Positions 16,145-22,121 of a stretch of DNA of 34,617 nt are shown in pieces. Both the position numbers and the translations under genes were made by a program. Origin of the DNA: Clostridia bacterium (GTDB lineage: Bacteria > Bacillota > Clostridia > Oscillospirales > JAAYXM01); the NCBI GenBank assembly GCA_017559855.1, contig JAFYQP010000077.1:1-34617 (forward strand). The letters run 5' to 3'. Below the pieces are notes generated by a model. That model was not told where the DNA came from. It was given only the letters and a program-made list of their open reading frames with translations, and did not search any database. Position 1 is the first letter of the stretch, and the number at the start of each line of letters is the position of its first letter.

Positions 16145-16966
16145 ATGATTATACATTTAAACAAACGGGGACTAATTTGCGGGATTTTGTGTATGGCACT
16201 TCTTTTTACCGCACGGTTTTTCCTTCCTGCCGATGAGGTTGCCGTAAACGGTGAAATCAAAGATTGGGGCCTTAGTTTTTCAAAACAAGGTGAGCCGCCG
16301 AGAGGCAACGCGGACTGTGAGTATTTAAAAAAATTTAACGCGTATTATTTAAACGAAGCGGGAGGTAATAAGATTTACCTGACCTTTGATGCGGGTTTTG
16401 AAAACGGGTATACCCCAAAAATTCTGGACGTGTTAAAAAAACACAATGCTCCCGCAACGTTTTTCGTTGTGGGAAATTATATTGACACATCTCCGGATTT
16501 AATTCGCCGTATGGTGAATGAAGGTCACGTCGTCGCAAACCACACAACAAGTCATCCGGATATGTCAAAAATTCGAGACATGGAGTCTTTTAAAAATGAA
16601 CTTTTAACTTTAGAGAAAAAATTTAAGGATCTAACCGGCAAAGATATGCCGAAAATCTACCGTCCGCCGCAGGGTAAATTCAACGAGGAAAACCTTAAAA
16701 TGGCAAAGGATTTAGGTTATAAAACCGTGTTCTGGAGCCTTGCCTATGTTGATTGGTATACGGATAACCAACCGTCACGGAATGAAGCAATGGAAAAACT
16801 TGTGCCAAGAATTCATCCGGGTGCCATTGTGCTCTTACACAGCACGTCAGGCACAAATGCGGAGATTTTAGATGAACTTCTCTCAAAATGGGAAAAAGCG
16901 GGATACGAAATTGCACCGCTTACCGACCTTGTTTATTCCCAGGACGCCCAAACTTCCGGACAGTAA
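16145..16966 (+). CDS. pdaA: PdaA-like polysaccharide deacetylase (spore cortex muramic lactam)
   Basis: A 273-residue exported or membrane-anchored deacetylase. An N-terminal hydrophobic segment (~11-26) is followed by the NodB-type domain. Visible motifs are TFDAGFENGYT (motif 1; Asp retained and Ala in the second Asp position, a difference also typical of PdaA), NHTTSHPD with the two metal-binding His, RPPQGKF, and FWSLAYVDWYTD plus HPGAIVLLHS near the end. The SLAYVDW and AFFVxGxY-like stretches match PdaA rather than general chitin deacetylases. PdaA acts on muramic acid residues to allow muramic-delta-lactam formation in spore cortex. The ATG at 16145 follows GGGGTGAG. Its 3' end overlaps the convergent ArsC-like gene by 34 bp. 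Confidence 0.87.
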   Translation: MIIHLNKRGLICGILCMALLFTARFFLPADEVAVNGEIKDWGLSFSKQGEPPRGNADCEYLKKFNAYYLNEAGGNKIYLTFDAGFENGYTPKILDVLKKHNAPATFFVVGNYIDTSPDLIRRMVNEGHVVANHTTSHPDMSKIRDMESFKNELLTLEKKFKDLTGKDMPKIYRPPQGKFNEENLKMAKDLGYKTVFWSLAYVDWYTDNQPSRNEAMEKLVPRIHPGAIVLLHSTSGTNAEILDELLSKWEKAGYEIAPLTDLVYSQDAQTSGQ

Positions 16967-17271
16967 CCAACGGTTACCTGTCGCCCGTTTCGCACGAAAG
17001 GTGCATTGTAAAGTGCGGGGTTTTCAAAGAGTTTGTCAATAACCGCCGCTTCATCGGCAAGATACGCAATGAAAGACTTTTCATATTCTTTTGAGTTTTT
17101 GTTAATCATTGCGTCAAGGCCTACCGCCGCTCTTACCGTTTCAAATTCACGTGGGGAAAGACCAAAACGGGCAAGGTCTATGTATTGGTATTTAATTCGG
17201 CGTTCTTTAAAATAACGCTCCGCCTTCTTCGTGTCAAAACTTTTAGGCATACCGTATATTTGAATATTCAT
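16933..17271 (-). CDS. ArsC/Spx-fold protein lacking the active-site cysteine
   Basis: A 112-residue thioredoxin-like protein of the ArsC/YffB/Spx superfamily. The opening strand and helix (IQIYGMPKSFDTKKAERYFKER) and the C-terminal APFVRNGRQVTVGY, containing the Arg expected in ArsC-like proteins, place it in the family. In the loop where family members carry a redox Cys (CxxC in Spx, single Cys in ArsC/YffB), this protein has Ser11 and no cysteine nearby; its only Cys is near the C-terminus. It is thus unlikely to be an arsenate reductase and may be a regulatory or degenerate member. It is transcribed leftward from a palindromic promoter shared with the hydrogenase maturation operon, and overlaps pdaA tail to tail. 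Confidence 0.75.
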   Translation of the reverse strand: MNIQIYGMPKSFDTKKAERYFKERRIKYQYIDLARFGLSPREFETVRAAVGLDAMINKNSKEYEKSFIAYLADEAAVIDKLFENPALYNAPFVRNGRQVTVGYCPEVWASWE

Positions 17272-17296
17272 AACACACCGCCTGATATTTTTTTAT

Positions 17297-17335
17297 TTTA
17301 GTATAGCATATTTAAAAATAATATGCTATACTAAA
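17297..17335. promoter_or_regulatory. Palindromic bidirectional promoter (extended -10 on both strands)
   Basis: Arms 17297-17312 (TTTAGTATAGCATATT) and 17320-17335 are a perfect 16-bp inverted repeat with a 7-nt centre. Each arm carries the extended -10 TGCTATACT, reading outward: 17324-17332 for the hyd operon (start near 17339) and 17300-17308 on minus for the ArsC-like gene (start near 17293). No good -35 is seen for either. The symmetry may also be a repressor operator. Confidence 0.6.
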
Positions 17336-17338
17336 GAA

Positions 17339-17450
17339 AATCTCCCCGATTTTTAAGATGTTTTTTACTTCTGCGAGAAAGGGGCGGAAACTTACCGTAG
17401 GATAACTATGCGTATTTTCGCCCTGTATTTATACAGGGCGTTTTTATTTT
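17339..17450 (+). promoter_or_regulatory. Structured leader with attenuator-like terminator before the hyd operon
   Basis: The ~120-nt leader folds in two exclusive ways. Structure 1 is a hairpin over 17382-17423: GGGCGGAAA pairs with TTTTCGCCC (9 pairs including one G-U), then TACCGTAG pairs with CTATG/GTA (one bulged C) around a GATAA loop. Structure 2 is an intrinsic terminator at 17419-17440 (arms CGCCCTGTA and TACAGGGCG) followed by TTTTTATTTT; its 5' arm reuses 17419-17423. A CCCC at 17344-17347 could pair with GGGG at 17381-17384 and free the terminator. The binding site GGAGG (17451-17455) follows the T run at once. It matches no riboswitch class I can recall. The ligand or trigger is unknown, and a constitutive small RNA is an alternative. 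Confidence 0.6.
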
Positions 17451-17460
17451 GGAGGTTAAA

Positions 17461-17721
17461 ATGGCTACAAGAATTGCACTTATAGGAATAATCGTTGAAA
17501 ATCCCGAAGCAACCGAGCGGTTAAACGCAATACTCCACGAGTATTCAAAGTACGTTGTGGGACGTATGGGCGTACCTTACCGTGAAAGAGGCGTCGCAAT
17601 AATTAGTATTATAATCGACGCAGAAAACAATGTAATAAGTGCCCTTTCGGGTAAATTGGGACAACTTGACGGTGTGCAGATTAAAACAATGTACGCAAAA
17701 GCGGGTGATGCGAGTGTGTAG
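17461..17721 (+). CDS. TM1266-type iron-only hydrogenase system regulator
   Basis: An 86-residue ACT/NikR-C-like protein. MATRIALIGIIVENPEATERLNAILHEY (in pieces), then VVGRMGVPYRERGVAIISIIIDA and GKLGQLDGVQIKTMYAK are typical of the small TM1266 family found beside [FeFe]-hydrogenase maturation genes. It has no DNA-binding domain of its own, so it may act as a small-ligand sensor; its mechanism is not established. The ATG at 17461 is chosen because GGAGG lies 5 bases before it; an in-frame TTG at 17449 falls in the terminator T run. It is the first gene of the operon, and its last codons overlap the hydE start. Confidence 0.88.
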   Translation: MATRIALIGIIVENPEATERLNAILHEYSKYVVGRMGVPYRERGVAIISIIIDAENNVISALSGKLGQLDGVQIKTMYAKAGDASV

Positions 17722-18667
17722 AGAAGAAATTATTTCAGCCCTTAACGCCCCTGACTTTACCGAATATTTCAAAAAAGCGGATGCGATGCGAAGAGAAGCC
17801 GTTGGCGATATCGTCCACTTAAGGGCAATTATTGAGTTTTCAAACCATTGTTTCAGAAACTGTGCGTACTGCGGCTTAAATTGCAAAAATAAAAGTTTGA
17901 AGCGATACAGAATGGAGCCTGAAGAGATAATTTCTTGCGGAAAAGAGGCGTGTTCGGCGGGATATAAGACTCTGGTGCTACAATCCGGCGAGGACAAGTT
18001 CTATACAAAGGAAATTATCGGGCAAATAGTGCAGGAACTTACATCTTGTGGCGTGACCGTAACGCTTAGTTGCGGTGAGAGGACGGATGATGAATACGCA
18101 TATTGGAGAGATTGCGGTGCGAAGAGATACCTTTTAAAGCACGAGACCGCAGATTCCAATCTTTATGCCGATTTGCATCCGGGATACACGCTTTCAGAAC
18201 GACTTTCCTGCCTTGAAGCAATTAAAAAGTTAGGGTATGAAACGGGAAGCGGATTTATGATAGGTCTTCCCGGCGAGTGTGCGGAAAGCATTGCCGATAA
18301 CATCATTCTTCTTGATAAACTGGATTGTGATATGGCGGGGATAGGCCCATTTATTCCTCATCCGGAGACCGAGATGAGAAATCACAAGGCGGGCTCGGTT
18401 ACAATCACTCAGAAGGCGGTTTCCCTTATCAGAATATTAAGACCGCATATGAACCTGCCTGCAACAACCGCACTTGGCGTACGTAACAAGGAAGCATACA
18501 CAGAGGCGTTTTCACGGGGTGCAAACGTTCTTATGAAGAAAGTAACACCTGCAAAATACCGCAGCCTTTACGAAATTTACCCAACAGAAATTAAAATTGC
18601 GGATATAAGAGACGAGAGGGCAAGTCTTTGTGAATTTATAAAATCACTTGGAAGAATTCCCGAATAG
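17708..18667 (+). CDS. hydE: [FeFe]-hydrogenase maturation radical SAM enzyme HydE
   Basis: A 319-residue radical SAM protein. The cluster-binding CxxxCxxC is in NHCFRNCAYCGLNC (~45-57). Other HydE/BioB-like segments follow: LVLQSGED, the KHETAD stretch (substrate-side region of HydE), SGFMIGLPGE, and IGPFIPHPET. HydE works in assembly of the hydrogenase H-cluster, downstream of HydG. The start is placed at ATG 17708 (MRVCREE), overlapping the end of the TM1266 gene by 14 bp; its binding site is weak, suggesting translational coupling. GTG 17714 in the same frame is an alternative. It is followed after 12 bp by hydG. Confidence 0.95.
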   Translation: MRVCREEIISALNAPDFTEYFKKADAMRREAVGDIVHLRAIIEFSNHCFRNCAYCGLNCKNKSLKRYRMEPEEIISCGKEACSAGYKTLVLQSGEDKFYTKEIIGQIVQELTSCGVTVTLSCGERTDDEYAYWRDCGAKRYLLKHETADSNLYADLHPGYTLSERLSCLEAIKKLGYETGSGFMIGLPGECAESIADNIILLDKLDCDMAGIGPFIPHPETEMRNHKAGSVTITQKAVSLIRILRPHMNLPATTALGVRNKEAYTEAFSRGANVLMKKVTPAKYRSLYEIYPTEIKIADIRDERASLCEFIKSLGRIPE

Positions 18668-18679
18668 GAGGAAGTATAA

Positions 18680-20092
18680 ATGTATAACAGCAAATCGAAA
18701 AATGCGGTGGAGTTTATCTGCCACGAGGAAATTTTAAATACTATTGAAAGAGTGAGCAAAGCGTCAAAAAACGCCGACAGGATTAAGGAAATCCTGGAAA
18801 AAGCCAAAGAATGCAAAGGTCTTGACTATGAGGCGGCGGCAACGCTTTTGATGTGTGAGGATGAGGACTTACTCTCTGAGATGTACGATATAGCAATGGA
18901 TATAAAGCGAAAAATATACGGTAACCGTATTGTTATGTTCGCACCGCTATATTTGTCTAACTACTGCGTAAACGGTTGCCGTTACTGCCCGTATCATTAC
19001 GGCAACTGTCACATTGCAAGAAAAAAACTCACGCAGGAGGAAATCCGCCGTGAGGTAATTGCCCTTCAGGATATGGGGCATAAGCGTCTTGCTTTAGAGA
19101 CCGGTGAGGATCCGAAAAATTCACCGATTGAATACGTTTTAGAGAGTATCAAGACAATTTACGGTATCCATCACAAAAACGGTGCAATCCGCCGTGTAAA
19201 CGTAAATATTGCGGCAACCACCGTTGAAAATTACAGAAAATTAAAGGAAGCGGGCATTGGAACCTATATCCTCTTCCAGGAAACCTATGACAAGGAGAGA
19301 TACGAATATCTCCATCCAACCGGACCTAAGCATAACTACGCATATCATACCGAGGCTATGGACCGTGCAATGGAAGGCGGTATTGACGACGTTGGTATCG
19401 GTGTACTTTTCGGCTTGTCCGATTACCGCTACGATTTCATCGGACTGCTTATGCACGCAAAGCATCTTGAAGACACCTTCGGTGTAGGACCGCACACCAT
19501 AAGTGTACCGAGAATCCGTCCCGCGGCAGACGTTGATTTAAACGAGTATCCCAATGCGATAGATGATAAACTTTTCAGAAAAATCGTTGCGATACTGCGA
19601 ATTGCGGTGCCGTATACAGGCCTTATAATTTCCACCCGTGAGTCGGAGGAATCCCGTGCAGACGTGCTTAAAGTAGGTGTGTCACAGATAAGCGGTGGCT
19701 CTTCCACAAGTGTTGGCGGCTATGTTGAAAAGGAGAAGGAGAACTCCTCCCAATTTGAGGTAAACGATACCCGAAGTTTAGACGAGATTGTAGGTTGGCT
19801 TGCAAAACTAGGCTATATGCCCTCATTCTGCACCGCGTGTTACCGTGAGGGCAGAACGGGTGACCGCTTTATGCAACTTGCAAAAACAGGTCAAATCGGA
19901 AACGTGTGTCAGGCAAATGCAATTATGACACTTAAGGAATATTTAGAGGATTACGCAAGTGACAAGACAAAGAAACTTGCGGAAGCACTCATTGAAAAGG
20001 AAACCGCAGACATCCCTAATGAAAAAGTAAAGGCATTGGTAATTGAGCACCTTAAGGATTTAGGCGACGGCAAGCGGGATTTCAGATTCTAA
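18680..20092 (+). CDS. hydG: [FeFe]-hydrogenase maturation enzyme HydG (tyrosine lyase)
   Basis: A 470-residue HydG of normal length. This radical SAM enzyme splits tyrosine and makes the Fe-CO-CN precursor of the H-cluster. The SAM-cluster motif CxxxCxxC is in NYCVNGCRYCPYH. The HydG-specific C-terminal cluster site is intact: CTAC, then exactly 22 residues, then the third Cys (CX2CX22C). Other conserved segments include LALETGEDP, ILFQETYDKERYEYLHP and QISGGSSTSVGGY. AGGAGG lies before the ATG. It sits between hydE and hydF in one operon with short gaps. Confidence 0.97.
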   Translation: MYNSKSKNAVEFICHEEILNTIERVSKASKNADRIKEILEKAKECKGLDYEAAATLLMCEDEDLLSEMYDIAMDIKRKIYGNRIVMFAPLYLSNYCVNGCRYCPYHYGNCHIARKKLTQEEIRREVIALQDMGHKRLALETGEDPKNSPIEYVLESIKTIYGIHHKNGAIRRVNVNIAATTVENYRKLKEAGIGTYILFQETYDKERYEYLHPTGPKHNYAYHTEAMDRAMEGGIDDVGIGVLFGLSDYRYDFIGLLMHAKHLEDTFGVGPHTISVPRIRPAADVDLNEYPNAIDDKLFRKIVAILRIAVPYTGLIISTRESEESRADVLKVGVSQISGGSSTSVGGYVEKEKENSSQFEVNDTRSLDEIVGWLAKLGYMPSFCTACYREGRTGDRFMQLAKTGQIGNVCQANAIMTLKEYLEDYASDKTKKLAEALIEKETADIPNEKVKALVIEHLKDLGDGKRDFRF

Positions 20093-20106
20093 AAGGGGGT
20101 TTGGCT

Positions 20107-21276
20107 ATGTCCCTTAACTCAACGCCGAATGCCGAGCGGCTACATATAGGAATTTTCGGCAAAAGAAATGCGGGAAAATCTACGCTTATAAACGCACTTA
20201 CCGGTCAGGAGGTTGCAATCACATCACCCTATGCGGGTACAACTGCAGATCCGGTACAAAAGGCGTGTGAAATTTACCCTATCGGCCCCTGCGTAATTAT
20301 TGACACGGCAGGGTTTGACGATGAGGGAGAGTTGGGCAGACTCCGTGTGGAGAAAACCCGTGAGGTTATTAAAAAATGCGACCTTGCGATTATGGTTTTC
20401 ACAGATGGGGATATTGATGCAGAACTTGCGTTTATTGAAGAAATTAAAGCACAAAAAGTTCCCGTAATATCCGTTGTAAATAAAATTGACATAGGAGAGC
20501 ACATATCGGATAGGTTAGAATGCCCGATTTTGGTAAGCGCACTTGAAAGCAGAGGTATTGAGGATTTGCGAAATGCGATAATCAAGGCACTTCCACCGGA
20601 TTTTAGTGCAATTTCTCTAACCGCACATCTTATAAAAGAGGGGGACACCGTACTTCTGGTTATGCCGCAGGATATCCAAGCACCCAAAGGTCGTCTTATT
20701 CTTCCGCAGGTGCAGACCATACGCAACTTATTGGATGAAAAATGCACCGTGGTATGTGCAACCGCAGAGGGTATGGAAAAGGCACTTTCCTCTTTGAAAG
20801 CACCGCCGAAACTTATCATCTGCGACTCGCAATGTTTTAAACCGGTATACGAAAAGAAACCGGAAAGTAGCCTTCTTACGTCTTTTTCCGTGCTTTTTGC
20901 AAGATATAAAGGTGATATTGATGCCTTTGAGGCGGGAGCCTCTGCCATTGACGCCCTAAAGCCGGGGGATCGTGTGCTAATTGCCGAAGCGTGTACGCAC
21001 AATGCACAGGACGGTGACATTGCACGGGTAAAAATTCCCAATCTGCTTCGCAAAAAAGTGGGGGGAGAACTTATAATTGATTTTGCTACCGGAACCTCTT
21101 TCGGAGATGATCTGGGGAAATATAAACTTATTATCCATTGCGGTGCTTGTATGTTTAACAGAAAATATGTGCTCTCCCGCATAGAGCAGGCCAAAAGGCA
21201 GGGTGTTCCCATAACAAATTACGGAATTGCCCTTGCAAAATTAACGGAAATTTTGCCATACGTTGAATTGAGGTAA
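20107..21276 (+). CDS. hydF: [FeFe]-hydrogenase maturation GTPase HydF
   Basis: A 389-residue GTPase and scaffold that carries the H-cluster precursor to the hydrogenase. The N-terminal G domain has GKRNAGKST (P-loop), DTAGFDD and NKID. A dimerisation domain follows, and the C-terminal cluster-binding motif is CTH (in EACTHN) with HCGAC ~50 residues later, matching the HydF CxH...HCxxC pattern. The start is ATG 20107, 7 bases after GGGGG; the in-frame TTG at 20101 is too close to that site. It lies 14 bp after hydG and 5 bp before tyrA. The hydrogenase structural gene hydA is not in the window. Confidence 0.96.
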   Translation: MSLNSTPNAERLHIGIFGKRNAGKSTLINALTGQEVAITSPYAGTTADPVQKACEIYPIGPCVIIDTAGFDDEGELGRLRVEKTREVIKKCDLAIMVFTDGDIDAELAFIEEIKAQKVPVISVVNKIDIGEHISDRLECPILVSALESRGIEDLRNAIIKALPPDFSAISLTAHLIKEGDTVLLVMPQDIQAPKGRLILPQVQTIRNLLDEKCTVVCATAEGMEKALSSLKAPPKLIICDSQCFKPVYEKKPESSLLTSFSVLFARYKGDIDAFEAGASAIDALKPGDRVLIAEACTHNAQDGDIARVKIPNLLRKKVGGELIIDFATGTSFGDDLGKYKLIIHCGACMFNRKYVLSRIEQAKRQGVPITNYGIALAKLTEILPYVELR

Positions 21277-21281
21277 GAAGT

Positions 21282-22121
21282 ATGAATATAGGAATAGTCG
21301 GCCTTGGCCTTATCGGAGCATCTATGGCAAAGGCGATAGAAAAAATGGGCGGAAACTTGGTTTTCGGTTATGATTTAAATCTTGATGTAATAGCCGCCGC
21401 AATTTCGGACAAGACCATTGACAGGGCGGGAAAAGATGAAGATTTACAGAGCCTTGACATGCTTTTCCTTGCACTTTATCCGAAGGATAGTATCGAATTT
21501 GTAAAGCGTAATAAGGATAAAATTGCAAAGGAATGTATCCTTTGCGATTTCGGCGGCGTTAAAAAGATCGTGTGTGATGAAATTTCAAAAATAGCAAAGG
21601 AAAAGGGTTTCCATTTTGTGGGCGGACACCCTATGGCAGGACGTGAACTCTCCGGCTATTTTGCGTCAAAAGGTGATCTTTTTGACGGGGCTAGTATGAT
21701 TTTAACTCCCGACGAGAGTGAAAAGGAGTGTGGGGAAAAACTTGCGGAGTTTTTTAAAAATCTTGGTTTTGGCAAGGTTGTGTTTACCACCCCTGAAAAT
21801 CACGACGATATGATAGCCTTTACCTCACAACTTGCCCACGTGGTTTCATCTGCATATATAAAAAGCCCTGAGGCATCACGCCACGAGGGTTACAGTGCGG
21901 GCAGTTATAAGGATTTAACACGTGTTGCACGGCTTAATGAGTTTATGTGGACGGAACTTTTTCTGGAAAACAGAGCACCTCTTGTGCGTGAAATCGACAC
22001 AATAATAAATCACCTTACCGAGTACAGAGAAGCAATTGCGGCCGGAGATGAAGAGCGGCTGTTTAATCTCTTAAAAGACGGTAGAGAGCGAAAAGAACAA
22101 ATTGACCAAGAAGTTGAATAA
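21282..22121 (+). CDS. tyrA: Prephenate dehydrogenase
   Basis: A 279-residue enzyme that converts prephenate to 4-hydroxyphenylpyruvate with NAD(P), the first committed step of tyrosine synthesis. The N-terminal Rossmann motif is GIVGLGLIGAS (GxGxxG). Family landmarks are FGGVKK, GGHPMAGRE with the catalytic His, and TSQLAHVVSSAY plus GSYKDLTRVA in the helical C-terminal half. No ACT or chorismate mutase domain is present. It begins 5 bp after hydF, so it belongs to the hydrogenase maturation operon. HydG consumes tyrosine, which gives the linkage a possible metabolic sense, though this is inference. It ends at a strong terminator. Confidence 0.93.
   Translation: MNIGIVGLGLIGASMAKAIEKMGGNLVFGYDLNLDVIAAAISDKTIDRAGKDEDLQSLDMLFLALYPKDSIEFVKRNKDKIAKECILCDFGGVKKIVCDEISKIAKEKGFHFVGGHPMAGRELSGYFASKGDLFDGASMILTPDESEKECGEKLAEFFKNLGFGKVVFTTPENHDDMIAFTSQLAHVVSSAYIKSPEASRHEGYSAGSYKDLTRVARLNEFMWTELFLENRAPLVREIDTIINHLTEYREAIAAGDEERLFNLLKDGRERKEQIDQEVE

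Follow-up and report, generated by a model that had tools for sequence, protein, structure and literature searches.

Known attenuators and the leader of the hyd operon

The pyr attenuators controlled by PyrR are built of a binding hairpin, an antiterminator and a terminator; the gene of the regulator is often the first of the operon and the element can be repeated between genes. The RAT sites of the BglG/SacY systems are short imperfect hairpins with internal loops that overlap a terminator arm, and binding favours antitermination. A third comparison is with the Moco RNA motif, a clostridial leader RNA that in Eubacterium limosum is reported to precede a cluster for a hydrogenase complex (PMC5651825).

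Here we describe the leader of an [FeFe]-hydrogenase maturation operon found in a window (the whole stretch of DNA that was analysed) of 34,617 nucleotides. This leader is very probably a transcription attenuator whose sensor is a divergent copy of a phylogenetically wide cis-regulatory RNA motif that precedes H-cluster assembly genes in many anaerobic bacteria, a level of confidence that covers the attenuator and the motif family, with the role of TM1266 as effector standing outside it. The structure of the motif, its covariation, its gene association and its competing platforms are established by the sequence evidence. With the pyr attenuators (RF00515) it shares an anti-antiterminator logic (the three exclusive structures being computed ones here) and the repetition within one operon (L205, L206, L211, L285). 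It differs from them in its genes (TM1266 is TIGR03959) and in its hairpin loops, and the score of the window with RF00515 is sub-threshold (19.6 bits versus a gathering threshold of 54). The RAT sites resemble it in being short, imperfect and interrupted by internal loops, and in the overlap with a terminator arm, but the hyd motif competes with the antiterminator and the genes are others. The Moco RNA is similar in being a clostridial leader RNA reported next to hydrogenase genes; however, it is a separate candidate riboswitch in Rfam with no match to our leaders, and the hyd motif precedes maturation genes. Modular platforms and a regulon extending over unlinked operons are features shared with transcription-terminating riboswitches, although no known class matches the motif and its effector is possibly a protein.

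In our literature searches no control of [FeFe]-hydrogenase maturation at the RNA level came to light. None of the motif-discovery and riboswitch papers that we found links hydrogenases to such a motif, nor is a comparable element reported in the passages found in RNA surveys of E. limosum and A. bakii. Apparently, the motif is an undescribed class among attenuator or riboswitch-like leader RNAs. From it follow a regulon open to testing (TM1266, hydE, hydF, hydG, aspA), a switch predicted to turn these genes OFF and a candidate for its partner. It also flags operons that combine HydE with nitrogenase-like proteins, and it points to a circuit that would control the assembly of the [FeFe]-hydrogenase active site. 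In practice, it could help to improve the heterologous production of hydrogenases or to sense the assembly of the H-cluster.

Competing structures in the window leader

The operon, on the plus strand, starts with the gene of a TM1266-family putative iron-only hydrogenase system regulator of 86 aa (17461-17721; NCBIfam TIGR03959, 118.7 bits, cut-off 60.8), followed by hydE (17717-18667; TIGR03956, 296 bits), hydG (18680-20092; TIGR03955, 853 bits) and hydF (20101-21276; TIGR03918, 526 bits). A prephenate dehydrogenase-like gene (21282-22121) lies directly 3' of hydF; since HydG consumes tyrosine, its co-transcription would make sense.

On the other side, the preceding Spx/ArsC-like gene (16933-17271) is on the minus strand, and a perfect inverted repeat of 16 bp (17297-17312 and 17320-17335), detected by direct reading, opposite-strand self-match and pattern search, sits between this divergent gene and the hyd operon. 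The repeat (17297-17335) presents extended -10 sites in mirror image, and a 14-mer of its arm has no second exact occurrence in the genome. The extended -10 TGCTATACT (17324-17332) is located just upstream of the leader and faces it; we infer that it is the promoter of the leader. It is absent from the output of a simple promoter scan.

The initial annotation had proposed that a long hairpin competes with an intrinsic terminator directly before the ribosome binding site of TM1266, while a third segment (CCCC at 17344-17347) would pair with GGGG at 17381-17384. All of these elements were recovered, and the third segment turned out to be P1 of a conserved motif. The motif hairpin (aptamer or binding-site domain; 17344-17384, plus strand), supported by its stand-alone fold, by both covariance models and by the covariation of the family, consists of P1 (17344-17347 with 17381-17384, CCCC:GGGG) next to a GA/AA loop, P2 (17350-17353 with 17375-17378, UUUU:GAGA) next to a 2x2 loop, and P3 (17356-17358 with 17370-17372, AGA:UCU). 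Folded alone, this region gives 4 bp / 2x2 / 4 bp / 2x2 / 3 bp at -10.9 kcal/mol. The long hairpin, which is the antiterminator (17381-17424, plus strand; -21 kcal/mol), has the GATAA loop and the one bulged C already described and a small CU bulge. It was identified from folds, duplex energy and a test of own versus swapped partners in the family. The P1 3' strand GGGGCGGAAA serves as its 5' strand and the 5' arm of the terminator TTTTCGCCC as its 3' strand, with a duplex energy of -14.8 kcal/mol. The intrinsic terminator (17419-17450, plus strand) is formed by a stem at 17419-17440, CGCCCTGTA-TTTA-TACAGGGCG, and the U-rich tail TTTTTATTTT (-15 kcal/mol); it overlaps the antiterminator at 17419-17424 and ends just before the Shine-Dalgarno GGAGG of TM1266, read directly at 17451-17455 on the plus strand. 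It is the only terminator-like site within 17200-17500, where shuffles expect 0.2.

A leader stretch of 141 nt folds better than its shuffles (z = -2.3; 4 of 200). When the terminator is included, the best fold combines P1 with the terminator (-35.0 versus -26.7 with the antiterminator forced), and when the leader is folded only to 17424 the antiterminator prevails. In these computed folds, the P1 hairpin, the antiterminator and the terminator are predicted to be mutually exclusive. A rival explanation, that the terminator simply serves a transcript coming from upstream or that two hairpins lie together by chance, appears very improbable. Such a terminator would stop read-through from the left too, but the gene on that side is on the opposite strand and a promoter-like site abuts the leader, so the objection of an upstream-gene terminator, already contemplated in the initial annotation, fails. 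Chance hairpins are at odds with the conservation and covariation that the alternative structures show between species.

The conserved motif and its expression platforms

A plain DNA search with the window leader yielded, apart from the leader itself, nothing in its own genome and a single weak match in its family, so the leaders were compared by way of orthologous genes. TM1266 is present in 187 of the 394 genomes of the order, and our set contained 110 leaders upstream of TM1266 from genomes of this order. Common to many of these leaders is an imperfect hairpin of ca. 36 nt, yCUGAc-n(2-4)-AA-[P3]-cuGA-n(2-4)-GAAAGg, with a P1 that has C4-G39 beside a GA/RA internal loop, a P2 of 3-4 bp, a second 2x2 loop and P3. 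The check on covariation suggested from the single locus gave a strong signal in two leader sets. In the alignment of 28 copies, obtained with plain MAFFT, double-change cells number 57, whereas shuffles give 19.9 and slid controls never exceed 26. For 69 copies the figure is 157 (52 in shuffles, at most 51 in slid controls) and for 72 independent copies, from loci unused for building the models, 175 (60 and at most 58, respectively), both of these alignments being fitted to the model and thus biased to its structure. The window sequence was excluded from every model and from the alignment of 28 copies. RNAalifold, unaided, recovered the same stems. The P2 pairs vary in step (A-U, G-C, C-G and U-A at one pair). 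By contrast, hardly any change is seen in the loop nucleotides CUGA / GAAAG, which, together with AA / GA, make the internal loops the most conserved part.

The early impression that the leader resembles no known riboswitch class was borne out by Rfam 15 (4227 families), which gave no family at the gathering threshold in the window leader and nothing at the motif in 27 relatives (20 searched at gathering thresholds, 7 at E <= 0.1). Matches elsewhere in the loci of the relatives were limited to tRNA, 5S rRNA and Gut-1; Chlorobi-1 also matched L064, below threshold and on its opposite strand. The T-box covariance model of Rfam did not match the leaders of the window or its relatives. Some leaders contain tandem pairs of the motif (L103 412-496, L153 3277-3357, L264 2320-2411). 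Others (L016, L024, L051, L109, L118) have an extra 5' hairpin (GGTGCGAG...CACCGAA type) upstream of the core motif, a possible second domain.

A strong terminator (dG <= -10) is found within 130 nt after the motif in 61 of the 69 copies and, in the independent set, in 46 of 72, whereas dinucleotide shuffles yield 8.7 and 3.9. The 3' strand of the motif (GAAAGGnnn) pairs far better with the 5' arm of its own terminator (-11.4) than with swapped ones (-8.4, sd 0.33), and the same is seen in the independent set (-9.1 versus -6.9, sd 0.35). This preference indicates that P1 and the antiterminator compete for one strand; at each locus, antiterminator and terminator are matched to one another, in the three-segment architecture first noticed in the window. 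A terminator is missing from several of the copies that immediately precede hydG, and their motif 3' strand is, or abuts, the Shine-Dalgarno (e.g., GAAAGGAG, GAAAGGTGG). The overlap with the Shine-Dalgarno within ca. 15 nt of the ATG occurs in L175, L181, L189, L206, L211, L239, L266 and L287. Both platforms have the same sign, and the folded motif would be the OFF state. In five loci (L205, L206, L211, L285, L287) the motif appears twice per operon, in the leader and between genes.

Promoter use, actual termination, the direction of control and the identity of the effector are inferred, and the following scheme is proposed for them. In the absence of the effector, the GG-containing P1 3' strand would pair with the 5' arm of the terminator, forming the antiterminator, and the operon would be read. 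The effector would stabilise the P1-P2-P3 hairpin, which would act as an anti-antiterminator; with the P1 3' strand sequestered the terminator would form and transcription would stop ca. 100 nt after its start. In the copies directly before hydG, since this same strand is the Shine-Dalgarno, the folded motif would hide it and block translation. The most likely effector is the TM1266 protein itself, possibly loaded with a small molecule and acting in a PyrR-like manner.

As to the window copy itself, both models (R1 and R2) have their best place within the leader at 17343-17384/5, plus strand. R1 gives it 4.4 bits (E = 0.3 for the leader, not significant genome-wide) and R2 9.4 bits (E = 0.02 in the intergenic leader of 189 nt, 3.7 in the whole window). 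A model search of its own genome gave one weak place elsewhere (16.4 bits, E = 2.9), and the window copy was not significant. The hairpin at 17344-17384 has the geometry of the motif family when folded alone, and its position and the complementarity of its P1 3' strand to the terminator arm are also those of the family. It keeps 6 of the 7 invariant nucleotides; at the seventh (the G of C8-G35) both partners have changed, to U-A. Its P2 is rich in U and includes G-U pairs. The only other TM1266 genome found in the family (G008) has a clear copy at the same place (L113). From the fold geometry, the invariant nucleotides, the strong antiterminator duplex and the copy of G008, we take the window leader to be a divergent but intact member, assigned partly by position. 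The low covariance-model score, the U-rich P2 and the loss of the usual C8-G35 pair could also be expected of a decayed remnant of a real family, with the leader now acting as a constitutive, partly terminating UTR. This we consider unlikely, given that all the pairs of P1 and P2 form, with paired substitutions (C-G to U-A, U-A to C-G), P1 has been lengthened to 4 bp, the antiterminator and the terminator, each of them strong, have the expected strand in common, and the G008 copy is clear.

Gene context and the candidate effector

In the 394 genomes of the order, 47 of the 49 best places of R1 (E <= 0.0037) are just upstream of H-cluster assembly genes; the other two end at contig edges, and the first clear false match has rank 50. 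Besides TM1266, the genes that follow are hydE (L137, L151, L152, L168), hydG (L164) and an acetyltransferase-hydG-hydF operon (L153). Across 391 genomes of the class, R2 detected the motif in 49, upstream of TM1266, hydE, hydG, hydF, aspA and HydE-containing operons. The aspA context (L171, L180) comes from two genomes belonging to a single genus. This gene fits the regulon, since AspA is able to supply nitrogen for the dithiomethylamine bridging ligand of the H-cluster and aspA is often a neighbour of hyd genes (PMC11736057). An extra test set of 80 loci, fetched only by TM1266 similarity and outside training, gave 43 places with R2 at E <= 1, of which 42 were on the coding strand and directly upstream of TM1266 or hydG. 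These loci include records titled Alphaproteobacteria (e.g., Azospirillum sp. CAG:239) and Victivallales, and the motif therefore seems to cross phyla.

Many genomes with TM1266 gave no model match (e.g., Clostridium sensu stricto, L254, L255, L272), and none of the convincing matches precedes hydrogenase structural genes. Weak matches in or near unrelated coding sequence, with no hyd gene following (L154-L162, L209, L213, L215, L217-L219), were rejected; their contexts include murG, priA and glutaminyl-tRNA synthetase. In L310 (272-6600, G755) the motif is followed by FecCD-type ABC transport, HydE (539 bits), a NifH-like and two NifD/E-like proteins, and in L312 (1098-8528, reverse strand, G461) it stands before a like operon with HydE, FecCD and nitrogenase-like proteins; these are possibly an unstudied nitrogenase-like/HydE cofactor system. 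Two further operons, with products named by sequence reading, have the motif and TM1266 followed by an ECF-type membrane protein (L314, 948-1505) or by an ABC transporter with a substrate-binding lipoprotein (L315, 744-3262).

As to the effector, we favour TM1266, as a PyrR-like RNA-binding attenuator, over a metabolite, and give it roughly an even chance. The resemblance to PyrR comes from the co-occurrence, the simple hairpin and the position of the regulator gene, first in an operon with repeated sites. TM1266 is present in 35 of 37 checked genomes of the class with the motif; one of the two exceptions is a false match and in the other (G407) the operon ends at the contig edge, its congener G657 having TM1266. 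Order-wide, there was no convincing match in a genome without TM1266, and none of the six inspected genomes with hydG and no TM1266 carries the motif. The power of this co-occurrence test is low, as TM1266 is absent from only 8 of 151 genomes with hydG. We found no RNA-binding activity or mechanism for TM1266 in the literature; the protein is annotated as 'putative regulator', and a solved relative (2nzc) is labelled 'hypothetical'. One ABC ATPase (L310, G755) has a C-terminal TM1266 domain, a fusion that suggests that TM1266 may be a ligand sensor. If TM1266 is the partner, it would represent a new family of RNA-binding attenuation proteins.

Quite possibly, the hairpin is instead the aptamer of a small-molecule or ion riboswitch with the same platforms and no protein, ligand binding giving an OFF feedback; this explanation shares the attenuator architecture and only the effector differs. 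A small ligand was already suggested in the initial annotation; what is sensed could be, for example, a metabolite of the pathway, the ammonium/aspartate status, iron or an intermediate of the H-cluster. In favour of it, riboswitches typically have modular platforms (here terminator or Shine-Dalgarno) and a regulon of unlinked genes; conservation is highest in the internal-loop nucleotides (CUGA / GAAAG, AA / GA); and aspA and FecCD transporter operons are among the carriers of the motif. On the other hand, a single short, imperfect hairpin, which has two purine-rich internal loops but neither a junction nor a pseudoknot, bears more resemblance to a site bound by a protein, the motif is found only in genomes encoding TM1266 (save the contig-edge case of G407), and no ligand is common to all the genes except the H-cluster or HydE chemistry. 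If the partner is a metabolite, this would be a new riboswitch class. A more specific variant, which we regard as improbable, is that the hairpin, alone or via TM1266, senses an H-cluster precursor (e.g., iron-CO/CN species or the HydE product). One RNA switch would then gauge organometallic cofactor assembly both for [FeFe]-hydrogenase maturation and for the HydE-plus-nitrogenase-like system.

Returning to TM1266, the favoured effector, the B-type examples are too few to separate a link between TM1266 subtype and P2 sequence from relatedness. A divergent subtype of TM1266 (no DAP after the GRMG motif) has its own copies of the motif (L165, L187, L200, L208), and in at least one genome (G482) it is found alongside the canonical TM1266.
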